This document shows positions 30,692-37,340 of a stretch of DNA of 64,000 nt, piece after piece (position 1 is the first letter of the stretch; each line of letters opens with the position of its first letter). The notes below the pieces were generated by a model, which did not search any database, had not been told where the DNA came from, and saw only the letters and a program-made list of their open reading frames with translations. Made by a program: the position numbers and the translations under genes. Source of the DNA: Sulfurimonas marina (GTDB taxonomy: Bacteria; Campylobacterota; Campylobacteria; Campylobacterales; Sulfurimonadaceae); NCBI RefSeq assembly GCF_014905095.1, contig NZ_CP041165.1, forward strand, positions 310,001 to 374,000, given 5' to 3'.

Positions 30692-32059
30692 ATAGAACCT
30701 TCAATTCTCTCAATTATTCCTCCCCTTTTAGCAATTTTTTTAGCACTTTATACAAAAAATGTACTTCTCTCATTATTTGGTGCAATCTTTTTAGGTCTCT
30801 TCTTTATATACGATTTTTCTATTTTTGCAACTTTTAGCGGTGTTCTAGAACTCTTCACAACATTACTCTCCAAAGGGTGGATATTAAAAACTTTAGGGTT
30901 TGCTATTCTTGTTGGAAGCATTATGGAGATTTTAGAACGCTCTGGTGCGATCGGTTCATTTGTAAAATATATGACGGAAAAGCGTGCATTAGTAAACTCT
31001 CCCCGCTCGGCATTAATGATTAGTTACATTATAGGTGTAGTTATATTTATAGAATCCTCTATAACATCACTTATAGCAGGTGCTGTGGGAAAACCTTTGT
31101 GTGACAGAGAAAAGGTGAGTCGTGCAAAGCTTGCGTATGTGTGTGATTCAACATCTGCACCGATTAGCTCACTTATACTGTTTAACGGCTGGGGTGCTTT
31201 GCTTTTAGGGCTAATTATTACACAAATAGAAAGTGGGATGATAAAGGGTGACAGCGTATCTCTTTTAATCCATGCGGTTGTGTATAACTTCTACTCTATC
31301 AGTGCACTGATTGTGACTTTTGTAGTAGTTTGGTTTGGACTTTATACAAAAAGCATGGAAGAGTCACAAGTTTATAGACCAACTAATGCACACTTTTCCA
31401 TAAGAAGTGCAGGTGCTTGGAGTATGTTGTTACCGATTCTGTTTTTAGTGTTCTCTGTATTTGGTTTTTTATATCTGACGGGTGATGGAGATATCTTAAA
31501 AGGGAGCGGTTCAAGCTCTATATTTTATACTACAGTATCGACGATGATATTTATGTTGATCTTGTATGTATTTATTCAAAACATGCCTTTTAAAAACTAT
31601 CTCAAAGCCTCTTATCTAGGAGGAAAGAAACTTTTTCCGATTGCAATGGTACTTCTTTTTGCATTTGCAATAGGCGAGGTGACCAGTGAGCTCAAAACTG
31701 GGTTATATCTTGCTTCATTTGCAAGTGAAAATATCAATATTTCTCTGCTTGCAGGTGTGATCTTTATACTCAGCGGGATTATCGCTTTTTCAACTGGGAC
31801 AAGCTGGGGGACTTTCTCTATTATGATTCCGATTGCAGTTCCTATGGCTGTAGCACTTGACGGGGATGTAGCTTTGGTTATCGGAGCTGTTATAAGCGGG
31901 GGAGTGTTTGGGGATCACTGCTCACCAATCTCAGACACTACGATCATCTCCTCACTTGCGAGCGGATGTGATGTAGTAGAACACGTTAAAACACAACTCC
32001 CTTATGCACTTTTGAGTGCTTTGATCGCATTGGTGTTTTTTATACTCTTTTCATTATAA
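30692..32059 (+). CDS. NhaC-type Na+/H+ antiporter with a non-canonical ATA start
   Basis: If read from ATA at 30692 the product is 455 residues with 10 or more membrane helices. The first 77 residues are clearly coding and antiporter-like (ILSIIPPLLAIFLALYTKNV, SLFGAIFLGLFFIYD) and run in frame into the rest (ILERSGAIGSFVKYM, VCDSTSAPISSLI, FSTGTSWGTFSIMIPIA, GDHCSPISDTTIISSLA). The first usual start, ATG 30923, would remove the first two or so helices. AGGA is 7 nt before ATA. So either AUA initiates, or ATG was lost by a point mutation or sequence error. It presumably exports Na+ in exchange for H+. The end overlaps the convergent lipoprotein gene by 6 bp. Confidence 0.8.
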   Translation: MEPSILSIIPPLLAIFLALYTKNVLLSLFGAIFLGLFFIYDFSIFATFSGVLELFTTLLSKGWILKTLGFAILVGSIMEILERSGAIGSFVKYMTEKRALVNSPRSALMISYIIGVVIFIESSITSLIAGAVGKPLCDREKVSRAKLAYVCDSTSAPISSLILFNGWGALLLGLIITQIESGMIKGDSVSLLIHAVVYNFYSISALIVTFVVVWFGLYTKSMEESQVYRPTNAHFSIRSAGAWSMLLPILFLVFSVFGFLYLTGDGDILKGSGSSSIFYTTVSTMIFMLILYVFIQNMPFKNYLKASYLGGKKLFPIAMVLLFAFAIGEVTSELKTGLYLASFASENINISLLAGVIFILSGIIAFSTGTSWGTFSIMIPIAVPMAVALDGDVALVIGAVISGGVFGDHCSPISDTTIISSLASGCDVVEHVKTQLPYALLSALIALVFFILFSL

Positions 32060-34245: not shown

Positions 34246-35574
34246 CTATTTTTTTCTTTCAAATTCTGCTGTAAATGTTTTTGTAGTATTTGCTTGAACC
34301 GTAAGGGTAAATGTAACAAAATTTCCCTTAGTATAACTGTATTTTTCCCGTGAAAAAACTTTTGCTCTTTTATCTTTACTAAAAGGAACACGGATTATTA
34401 CGGTTTTTTGCTTATCTGAACTGTTTGTTACGGCGTATTTGATCTTGGCACTTAGAAGATGTTTTCTCTCTTGTCGCTCGATCAGTGTTTGGAGTACTTT
34501 AATGTCAAACTCTTTGCCGATGGCGAGATCTATTTGAGTATTTTTAGGAGTGTGTGAAATTGAACTCTCCCCTAAAAGGATACTCTGTCCCTTTAGTTTT
34601 GAGTAAACTCTAACAGTCCCTTTTGGGAGCGGCTGGTTAAGCTCTTGAACAACTACATGCTGAATCACGTCATGTTTTGTTTCCCCTTTTAGGTGTAGCG
34701 GATTAAAGAGCCGGGCTACATACTCTTTGTGAAACTTCATATTTTCAAGTGACAAAAACTTGATCTGCGTTTTTTCATTGTTTGCCAGATCAACTTTGAA
34801 AGGGACATTGTAGTGGTGGTATCCCTCAAACGACTGGTGTTGTACGCTTGTGTCCATCTCGGCTGCGGCCAAAGTTTTGTAGCGTACGGGTTGAGGCTTG
34901 TTTACAAAGTTTACATCACCCGCTATAAACGAGAGTGAAGTGTCGTGAAACGCTTTTCCCGAACGGTTATTGACACTCAGCCAGCCGCTTAAATCTACTG
35001 CACTCTTGTGAATGTTGAGAATGTAATTACTAGTGAGTGAAATGTTGGAGATGAGGTACTCTAGCTCAAGAGGAGCTTTTATGTTTTTAGAGCTTTTAAC
35101 ATTCCAGACAAGTGAGGGTTTTGTGATCAGGGTTTTTGGGATATCTTTGAAGATGATATTTTCAACTTTTACGGGGATGATCTGGTTTTGTTTTGTCTTT
35201 ACCAAAGCGCGTGAGCCTTCTACAGAGAGGAGTGTCGCTTTTTTTGTTTTATCTTTATCTGTTTTAAATGTCACCTCTTTAGCTATGTGGGCATCCAACA
35301 TTTTTCTAAGGGAGAGTTGATCGTAACGATACTGCTGCGAGTAAAGAGTTACCCCTTTTGGAAGTTTTATGTTGACAGAATCGGTGTTGATGCTGTTTGC
35401 AACATTGTCGTAGACGATCAGAGTGTCGTTGCGGTTTAGTTTGAGATCTCTTGCCTCATGTACAAGCGCACGGTTAGAGTTGTAAACAACGAGTGAAGAG
35501 TTTGTCGGTTCAGTTGAAAGCGTAGCACCAAAACCCAGAGATGAAAGAAGTAAAAGTGATGTGAGAGTTTTCAT
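34246..35574 (-). CDS. Exported DUF4139-like protein
   Basis: A 442-residue protein with a signal peptide (MKTLTSLLLLSSLGFGATL). The N-terminal half carries NRALVHEARDLKLNRNDTLIVY, and the C-terminal beta-rich half has YNVPFKVDLANNEKTQIKFL, VQELNQPLPKGTVRVYSK and a final strand block rich in Thr and Phe, the pattern of DUF4139/DUF4140-type mucoidy-inhibitor-A relatives. Function is unknown. AAAAGGG lies upstream of the ATG. The start codon and promoter are inside a 63-bp sequence repeated 1056 bp away on the other side of the eamA gene. Confidence 0.78.
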   Translation of the reverse strand: MKTLTSLLLLSSLGFGATLSTEPTNSSLVVYNSNRALVHEARDLKLNRNDTLIVYDNVANSINTDSVNIKLPKGVTLYSQQYRYDQLSLRKMLDAHIAKEVTFKTDKDKTKKATLLSVEGSRALVKTKQNQIIPVKVENIIFKDIPKTLITKPSLVWNVKSSKNIKAPLELEYLISNISLTSNYILNIHKSAVDLSGWLSVNNRSGKAFHDTSLSFIAGDVNFVNKPQPVRYKTLAAAEMDTSVQHQSFEGYHHYNVPFKVDLANNEKTQIKFLSLENMKFHKEYVARLFNPLHLKGETKHDVIQHVVVQELNQPLPKGTVRVYSKLKGQSILLGESSISHTPKNTQIDLAIGKEFDIKVLQTLIERQERKHLLSAKIKYAVTNSSDKQKTVIIRVPFSKDKRAKVFSREKYSYTKGNFVTFTLTVQANTTKTFTAEFERKK

Positions 35575-35630
35575 AAGAGTACCCTTTTAAATAAAATATT
35601 TAATGATACTCTTTTATGAAAAATTTGTCT
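35568..35630. repeat. 63-bp direct repeat, copy A (DUF4139 start and promoter)
   Basis: Matches copy B at 36624-36686 at 59 of 63 positions without gaps. It covers the first codons, Shine-Dalgarno and probable promoter of the DUF4139 gene on the minus strand. An internal inverted repeat, CATAAGAGTA against TACTCTTTTATG, could be an operator or hairpin. This copy also reaches the last bases of the eamA gene. Confidence 0.85.
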
Positions 35631-36522
35631 AAAAGTATTTTTGGGTGTTTTTATAAAATAGAGATAAGTAGATCCCAAAGGCTATGAGACTAGCGCCCAA
35701 TAGATGGTAGGAGTGTAAACTCTCTTTTAAAAAAATTGAAGCTAAAATGATACCGAAGATCGGCATAAGGTGGGTAAACTGTGCCGTTTTTGATGCACCT
35801 ATTTTCTCTATGCCGTAATGCCATAAATAGTAAGAGGAGATCGATGCAAAAATAGAGACATACAAAAAAACAGGGTAGTTGTTTTGCAACACTTCCAGCT
35901 CTTGTTGAAACGAGTAGCCTTGATAGAGATAAAACGGCAGCAAGACTATCAAACCTATTGCCACGGTTGTAGAAAAATACTCAAAATCATTAAGATCTTT
36001 TGGTTTGTACTTGAGTAAAACAGAGTATAAAGCCCACGATAATGAAGTGATGATAATGAGAATATCCCCTTGATTAAACTCCAGAGTCAAAATATTTGCA
36101 ATGTCGGCTTTGAGTATTAAAAATATTACGCCGAGGGTTGATAGTATGATCCCCGTAGTTTGGTAAAACTTTATCTTTTGTTTTAAAATAAAGAAAGAGA
36201 GAACAAGCACTAAGATCGGAACAGTCGAGTTTATGATCAGGGCATTTGTAGAAGTGGTGAATGTAAGTCCGTAGTACAACAGGGTATTAAATGTCGTGAT
36301 CCCAAGTATTGCCAGCACTGTTAGAATTGTAAAATTTTGTTTTAGAGAATGGATGATTTTTTCGTGTCTGATGATTAAAATCGGAGATACCATCAAAAAA
36401 ACAAAAAACCATCTAAAAAAAGCTAATTCCATAGGTGTTATGTCGTCTTTGACAAATCTCCCGAGTACAAAGTTTACAGACCAAAATAGTACACATAAAG
36501 TTATTAAAAAATAGGTTTTGAT
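35629..36522 (-). CDS. EamA/DMT-family transporter with a non-canonical ATC start
   Basis: If read from ATC at 36522 the product is 297 residues with about ten membrane helices, the usual EamA length. The first 30 residues are plausible DMT sequence (KTYFLITLCVLFWSVNFVLG, then RFVKDDITP) and run in frame into MELAFFRWFFVF. Starting at the first ATG (36432) would delete the first helix. AAGGAG lies 6 nt before ATC and an in-frame TAA directly precedes it, so no alternative start exists upstream. A TATAAT is at 36574-36579. Either AUC initiates or the start codon has mutated. Substrate unknown; amino acids or metabolites are typical for the family. Confidence 0.8.
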   Translation of the reverse strand: MKTYFLITLCVLFWSVNFVLGRFVKDDITPMELAFFRWFFVFLMVSPILIIRHEKIIHSLKQNFTILTVLAILGITTFNTLLYYGLTFTTSTNALIINSTVPILVLVLSFFILKQKIKFYQTTGIILSTLGVIFLILKADIANILTLEFNQGDILIIITSLSWALYSVLLKYKPKDLNDFEYFSTTVAIGLIVLLPFYLYQGYSFQQELEVLQNNYPVFLYVSIFASISSYYLWHYGIEKIGASKTAQFTHLMPIFGIILASIFLKESLHSYHLLGASLIAFGIYLSLFYKNTQKYF

Positions 36523-36528
36523 TTATTG

Positions 36529-36534
36529 CTCCTT
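36529..36534 (-). promoter_or_regulatory. Shine-Dalgarno pointing to an ATC start codon
   Basis: AAGGAG on the minus strand, 6 nt before ATC (36522-36520). This is one of the strongest Shine-Dalgarno sequences in the window, in front of a codon that is not ATG, GTG or TTG. Confidence 0.65.
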
Positions 36535-36573
36535 AAAATTATGAAAGAGATATTTGTAAGTTTTAGTTGCGTA

Positions 36574-36579
36574 ATTATA
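36574..36579 (-). promoter_or_regulatory. -10 element of the eamA gene at 36522
   Basis: TATAAT on the minus strand about 50 nt before the ATC start, indicating that the promoter as well as the Shine-Dalgarno is intact. Confidence 0.5.
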
Positions 36580-36623
36580 CCTGCTTTAACTATGCGGAAA
36601 TCTAACATTTTGGTAGAAAAGAA

Positions 36624-36686
36624 TTTTCATAAGAGTACATTTTTTAATAAAGTATTTAATGATACTCTTTTATGAAAAATTTGTCT
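36624..36686. repeat. 63-bp direct repeat, copy B
   Basis: Same orientation as copy A (59 of 63 identical). On the minus strand it retains ATGAAAAT, but the reading frame stops after 14 codons and the AAGGG Shine-Dalgarno is lost, so it looks like the remains of a duplicated gene start. The 36523-36725 gap otherwise holds only the eamA promoter. Confidence 0.85.
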
Positions 36687-36725
36687 GAAGTAATAATTTT
36701 TTTCGGAGGCTAAACTATACTGTTT

Positions 36726-37340
36726 TTATGTCTGTTCTGTACTTGACGTCTCATGCAATATATTGTTTCTATGTTCCCAAAATTCATATAAATTGTATTT
36801 AGTCTTAATTATAAGCTCTATGATTTTTTGTAAAGATTCTTCTGTGAATTGTACATATTCTTGTTGCATACCATTTTTTGACATTCTAAGTTTTACAAAA
36901 GCATATCCCTCTTCGTTCGTACTTTCCCAATTAGCATGTGCTACAAGATTACGTAACTTAGCAGATTCTTTTAAATCGTTAACAAGTTGCTCATAACCTA
37001 TAAGATTTTTATCTAAAGCAATTTGAAAATCATCGCAAAATCTTTTCAATAAGTCTACTTTTGCAGAAAAGCTCATTTTACTTAAAACAATTAAACCTGT
37101 AGAATCGGTTCGGTCTGTAAATCTTTCGCAAAGTACTGAATCTAAAGAACTTTCCAAAGAATTGAAATACATGATAATTAATCCAATAAATGGAATTGCA
37201 TTTTCCAAATATTCTTCAGCTTTTTCTTCATCATCAATTTCATGATAAAGATGTTGCATAAAATCTGTAAGTTTTGTTTTCATATAGTCAAAATTCCTTT
37301 TGTGAGATAACTGTTGTATTAGAACTATTATATCTGTCAT
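36726..37340 (-). CDS. HEPN-like protein of unknown function
   Basis: A 204-residue, mostly helical soluble protein. The sequence AKLRNLVAHANWES contains an RX4H (RNLVAH) motif placed late in the protein between helices, as in HEPN ribonuclease folds; LRNLVAHANW is also seen in small proteins of phage-defence and toxin type. No nucleotidyltransferase or antitoxin-like partner is adjacent. TAAAAT lies 6 nt before the ATG at 37340 with no Shine-Dalgarno, so the mRNA may be leaderless. An internal ATG at 37283 with AAAGGAA upstream is an alternative start. Catalytic activity is inference from the motif only. Confidence 0.65.
   Translation of the reverse strand: MTDIIVLIQQLSHKRNFDYMKTKLTDFMQHLYHEIDDEEKAEEYLENAIPFIGLIIMYFNSLESSLDSVLCERFTDRTDSTGLIVLSKMSFSAKVDLLKRFCDDFQIALDKNLIGYEQLVNDLKESAKLRNLVAHANWESTNEEGYAFVKLRMSKNGMQQEYVQFTEESLQKIIELIIKTKYNLYEFWEHRNNILHETSSTEQT

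Follow-up and report, generated by a model that had tools for sequence, protein, structure and literature searches.

In Sulfurimonas marina, a gene for a predicted inner-membrane transporter of the DMT/EamA family contains no canonical start codon that would keep its conserved N-terminus, and its protein should, judging from orthologs and a structural model, begin at or beside an ATC codon at position 36522 of the window (the whole stretch of 64,000 nucleotides that was analysed, positions 310,001 to 374,000 of contig NZ_CP041165.1). We infer that low-level initiation takes place at this AUC, which is the best reading of the sequence and one that we hold as moderately probable.

Sequence layout around the ATC codon

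Positions 36540-36508 of the minus strand, read directly, are AATTTTAAGGAGCAATAAATCAAAACCTATTTT, and the stretch that carries the ATC, with AAGGAG 6 nt 5' of it and an in-frame TAA directly ahead, is ...AATTTTAAGGAGCAATAAATCAAAACCTATTTTTTAATAACT... The features of the gene are as follows (all on the minus strand).

35629-36522 (-): EamA/DMT transporter open reading frame, 297 codons, ATC to TAG (Pfam EamA, 177.2 bits; AlphaFold pLDDT 89.6; 10 predicted transmembrane helices)
36520-36522 (-): ATC, the putative start; close orthologs have an internal Ile, Leu or Met codon in this column (sequence, ortholog alignment)
36523-36525 (-): in-frame TAA directly 5' of the ATC (sequence)
36529-36534 (-): Shine-Dalgarno AAGGAG, 6 nt ahead of the ATC (sequence, spacing survey)
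36430-36432 (-): first in-frame canonical start, an ATG, with no Shine-Dalgarno seen (sequence, Pfam score, AlphaFold)
36574-36579 (-): TATAAT, possible -10 element (by eye only)

The spacer between AAGGAG and ATC is CAATAA (36528-36523), and its final three bases are the in-frame TAA which, as it abuts the ATC, blocks any in-frame start further upstream. Downstream, 297 open codons lead to a TAG (35631-35629), and ATG, GTG and TTG are absent in frame from the 30 codons that separate ATC 36522 from ATG 36432. The elements listed by a previous sequence-only reading of this DNA (AAGGAG, 6 nt, ATC, a stop directly upstream and a first ATG, 36432, 30 codons in) were all confirmed. A coding stretch of 30 codons devoid of ATG, GTG and TTG is not rare alone (28% of stretches of this length). 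A 464-kb part of the genome contains 145 AAGGAG sites, both strands counted, so that the chance of meeting one at any of the four allowed spacings ahead of one given codon is about 0.0006; at the genome's own AAGGAG sites, 5 and 6 nt are the favoured spacings (15 of 19). No strong RNA structure surrounds the ATC (-6 kcal/mol, z +0.73). The gene has the marks of a near-cognate (AUH) start, namely a normal Shine-Dalgarno spacing and the lack of any canonical start that keeps the conserved N-terminus.

Another frame is open just upstream and runs into the gene.

36504-36608 (-): 34-codon upstream open reading frame beginning with ATG, in another frame (the EamA frame is its -1 frame; sequence)

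This frame ends 16 nt beyond the ATC, its TAA sharing bases with EamA codons 6-7, and translation begun at ATG 36608 might pass from it into the EamA frame in two ways: ribosomes might reinitiate at the ATC once they have met the nearby stop, or slip by -1 at TTT TAA, where a P-site TTT can re-pair after the slip and the product would be N-terminally extended. We regard this route as very improbable: no Shine-Dalgarno was seen ahead of ATG 36608, the TATAAT at 36579-36574 falls inside the frame, the slip site is not a classical heptamer and no ortholog carries such an N-terminal extension.

The predicted transporter and its first helix

Domain and structure predictions both identify the product as a putative DMT/EamA-family inner-membrane transporter. 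Two EamA repeats (PF00892) were found in two stretches, far above the curated cut-off of 28.2 bits, and the AlphaFold model (the pLDDT given above is the mean) has ten membrane helices, the first of which (residues 2-23) is modelled with high confidence. Foldseek matches this model to the solved DMT structures 7paf, the LicB choline importer, and 5i20, which we take to be a YddG-type DMT exporter, with TM-scores of about 0.74-0.78; both share the fold and the 10 helices of the EamA protein, with an identity of only 14-18%.

The sequence of the first helix is common to all 24 aligned orthologs, in which F13, W14, S15, N17 and F18 are invariant. Conservation and model alike indicate that the 30 codons ahead of ATG 36432 are real protein, and the earlier suggestion that they encode a first helix is thereby borne out. 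It is hardly credible that the protein is instead a 267-aa form starting at ATG 36432. This ATG is the first canonical start and may be picked by automatic annotation, and the shorter form still matches EamA at 153.9 bits (down from 177.2), but it would lose the first membrane helix together with the five invariant residues, and the ATG has no Shine-Dalgarno. A protein that started at 36432 with a full set of helices had been named as evidence against the ATC; since this start removes helix 1, that objection falls.

Start codons of the orthologs and origin of the ATC

The seven closest other orthologs differ from the S. marina gene in where they start. At the column of the ATC, four of them have ATA (L061, L062 and L002, 80-81% identity, and L065, 69%), which encodes an internal Ile (MSN-IKTY, MLN-IKTY, M-IKTY, (GTG)SN-IKTY); L004 and L063 have TTA or CTA (one each), and L064 has an ATG inside (TTG)SN-MKTY. 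Their start lies 3 codons upstream in five and 1 codon upstream in one; the remaining one may start either at a TTG 3 codons ahead of the column or at an ATG within it. More distant Arcobacter-type orthologs begin with ATG AAA at exactly the ATC column, so that orthologs overall start with ATG, GTG or TTG 1-4 codons upstream or at the column. None of the close orthologs uses ATC, and as a start it is confined to one genome. Two orthologs with 80% identity carry the same peptide IKTYFLIT, which shows that the reading frame at the junction is real, and the upstream sequences of the orthologs align poorly, which fits a gene moved between genomes. We also noticed that in L084, a 44% identical ortholog, no in-frame ATG, GTG or TTG precedes the conserved N-terminus and the start candidates are ATT or CTG; this sequence is metagenome-derived and so less certain.

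Because close orthologs carry Ile, Leu or Met internally at this column, the simplest account is that the ATC was probably once an internal codon, inherited from an ancestor, and came to stand first when the one to three codons ahead of it were lost. The sequence-only reading had held that only the start codon deviates and that it differs from ATG at the third base, implying a change of ATG to ATC; neither view finds support, as the close orthologs start 1 or 3 codons further upstream and the sisters have mostly Ile or Leu codons in this column. A point change from ATG to ATC in this lineage is possible, given that Arcobacter-type orthologs start with ATG AAA at the same column.

An ATG at 36522 could also exist in the true genome and have been obscured by a sequence error or a culture mutation, which we consider improbable. 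A single G to C change distinguishes the ATC from ATG AAA ACC TAT, a sequence that would match both the Arcobacter-type ATG AAA TAT TAT and the ATG AAA ACT TAT of L064. However, the genome is a single contig with 99.89% completeness, the ATC lies outside any homopolymer, and the Ile or Leu found in close sisters gives no reason to expect ATG at 36522. A homopolymer error at the start was rejected, as the nearby T6 run has the same length in L062 and no indel is needed.

Under low-level AUC initiation, the first codons (the ATG and up to two more) would have been lost in this lineage, leaving an Ile codon at normal Shine-Dalgarno spacing; the ribosome would dock on AAGGAG, and the initiator fMet-tRNA would pair with the AUC 6 nt downstream, its third base mismatched, to yield fMet-KTYFLIT... 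at a reduced rate. Such a low output may be tolerable, or even useful, for a transporter of this kind. An altered initiator tRNA found no support at the level of the anticodon: the three tRNA-Met genes seen all carry CAT (30 of the 45 tRNA matches had a locus of their own, and these loci cover several of the other matches too), and the third-base mismatch at AUC is therefore expected. AUC is expected to be a poor start, since IF3 rejects weak third-base pairs in vitro (PMC10158994).

Genomic context and selection

Elsewhere in the genus, at ten loci in nine other genomes, a DUF819 gene and a gene for a 442-aa protein are divergent neighbours; here, a gene for a 204-aa protein and the EamA gene are inserted between them. 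Comparison of these loci places the EamA gene, which is sporadic within the genus, in a lineage-specific insertion, and two repeat copies flank the gene exactly.

35564-35633 (-): 70-bp direct repeat, downstream copy, overlapping the EamA stop codon (sequence comparison)
36620-36689 (-): 70-bp direct repeat, upstream copy, 91% identical (sequence comparison)

The downstream copy corresponds to the upstream region and the start of the 442-aa gene (34246-35574). The 204-aa gene of the same insertion (window 36726-37340, minus strand) has no Pfam match. The EamA gene has an atypical GC3 of 0.397, a value reached by 5 of the 291 long genes in the surveyed part of the genome, and it scores below typical genes in codon usage.

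These features bear on the main rival, in which the gene is a recent start-loss allele, barely or not translated, and thus a pseudogene that has yet to decay. We judge it unlikely, although it is the alternative that deserves most weight. In its favour, orthologs have a canonical start upstream of the column or at it, no close ortholog begins at the ATC, which is found in a single genome, and the gene is sporadic, compositionally atypical and located inside the insertion. Against it, the 297 codons show no stop, no frameshift and no other disabling change, all 46 residues that are invariant in the other orthologs are kept (46/46), the Shine-Dalgarno is preserved at just the distance that the ATC requires, and relatives use AUH starts. 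Pairwise dN is about 0.10 against a dS of 1.5-2.6 when the gene is compared with L061 and L002. This lack of decay is weaker evidence than it looks, because most of the divergence may predate the start loss: a recent loss would look the same, the intact frame and the low dN/dS reflecting mostly the time before it. If the start was lost at insertion, on the other hand, the 9% divergence between the repeat copies would mean that the gene has since had time to decay to some extent.

Probable near-cognate starts in other genes of the genus

A gene of the Na+/H+ antiporter family in the same window (30692-32059, plus strand) starts with ATA in 27 of the 30 same-genus genomes. Among these we count L056, whose ATA precedes the first matched residue by 4 codons; in the remaining three genomes an ATG stands one codon ahead of the ATA position. 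The codon is always ATA, though ATA accounts for 43% of the Ile codons of this gene and ATT and ATC together for 57%, so that ATA only would occur by chance with a probability of 0.43^27, or about 1e-10, relatedness ignored. The stretch from the upstream stop to the ATA is free of canonical starts in all but three genomes, which have a TTG 7-9 codons ahead of the ATA; on the downstream side, the position of the first canonical codon ranges from codon 4 to codon 77, and no usable ATG, GTG or TTG is left. The ATA does not overlap the preceding gene, and its Shine-Dalgarno (AGGA) is weak. Read-through, frameshift or fusion from the preceding gene was rejected: the phase of its stop differs among relatives, which rules out a fused or frameshifted product. 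There is thus good evidence, from comparison of genomes, that this ATA is a conserved AUA start. The EamA ATC had been described as the second such case in 6 kb, on an equal footing with the ATA at 30692. The count is correct, and both are near-cognate starts of genes for inner-membrane transporters in the same genome, but the two differ in kind: the ATA is conserved across the genus behind a weak AGGA, whereas the ATC follows a perfect AAGGAG and is found in one genome.

The survey for non-ATG starts behind a good Shine-Dalgarno that the sequence-only reading had proposed was run on a 464-kb part of the genome (458 predicted genes). We retained frames of at least 100 codons in which a Shine-Dalgarno of at least 5 nt lay 5-9 nt before ATA, ATC, ATT or CTG and in which 3 or more codons preceded the first canonical start; the scan was run without a codon-usage filter, since scores of that kind lacked the power to detect the EamA gene. 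The EamA gene was the only frame retained. We also noticed that in a probable outer-membrane protein gene outside the window (G000:C1:383747-385021, plus strand) a single in-frame TAG (384380-384382) separates 211 open codons from a further 212.

One more near-cognate candidate came from the 464-kb survey, also outside the window.

G000:C1:441447-441785 (L129:7447-7785) (+): rnpA, RNase P protein (Pfam, E 1.7e-22; genus comparison)

In 28 genomes of the genus, the first 18 codons of rnpA lack ATG, GTG and TTG, the exception being one genome with ATG as codon 9, and in three genomes the whole frame is free of canonical starts; ATT is the sole start candidate common to all 28. The end of rpmH overlaps rnpA and contains this ATT (e.g. 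AAA AGA TTG TCA GTT TAG), so that the conservation of the ATT is partly that of L34. At 28 of 30 loci, however, rpmH encodes the Leu in question by TTG, although TTG represents 11% of Leu codons there, and in another family rpmH has CGA before the TTG in 9/9 loci, CGA being 14% of Arg codons. In two families with an in-frame TTG start candidate in rnpA, the ATT is gone, with ACT in 3 of 4 loci. The codon choice of rpmH and the loss of ATT where a TTG candidate exists argue that the ATT itself is kept, and a start of rnpA at ATT is a strong lead, not proof. IF3 as a special case was rejected: it was found in 45 of the 46 genomes searched, with infC apparently starting with TTG. In the genus (L086-L115), infC appears to start with TTG (TGAGGTAAATTTTTGAG), unlike infC of E. 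coli, which has an AUU start.

Precedents and significance

AUU and AUA starts are already documented in bacteria, and the EamA AUC would add one more such gene. In S. aureus, AUH starts were described for infC and ccpN (AUA), cvfC1 (AUU) and, in one lineage, citZ (AUA), and reporters of ccpN, cvfC1 and citZ gave about 10% of the AUG output in poor medium (PMC13009471); pcnB of E. coli is cited inside the same paper as having an AUU start. In B. subtilis, an rny-lacZ fusion whose start codon was mutated to AUC is still expressed at a low level (PMC10303841). Switches to AUN starts are very rare, with 1 AUU among 61,358 ancestral AUG starts in 36 genome groups, an annotation-based figure (PMC5622118). 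No paper on start codons in Sulfurimonas bearing on the EamA ATC was found.

The S. aureus genes citZ, ccpN, infC and cvfC1 resemble the EamA gene in being ordinary chromosomal genes with an AUH start, several of them with an extended Shine-Dalgarno, and the citZ start is, like the EamA ATC, limited to one lineage. They differ in that their starts were shown by ribosome profiling and/or luciferase fusions, whereas the proposed EamA start is an AUC, in another phylum, read from sequence. The AUU starts of E. coli infC and pcnB share with it the third-base difference from AUG and an expected low output, but they are conserved and regulatory whereas the EamA ATC is found in one genome.

It is possible, and we propose it tentatively, with slightly more doubt than confidence, that AUH starts are a standing low-output setting in Campylobacterota, or at any rate in this genus (the antiporter AUA genus-wide, the rnpA AUU in several families), and that the EamA gene is a recent case in which the start shifted to an internal AUC and the gene was retained. 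As gene finders normally call only ATG, GTG and TTG, genes with near-cognate starts are annotated too short or overlooked. Use of the ATC would show how a gene can survive the loss of its start by means of the next codon located at the right Shine-Dalgarno distance. The interest of the single-genome EamA case comes from the conserved near-cognate starts around it: taken together, the EamA ATC, the conserved ATA and the probable rnpA ATT suggest that near-cognate starts are a regular and testable feature of this group.
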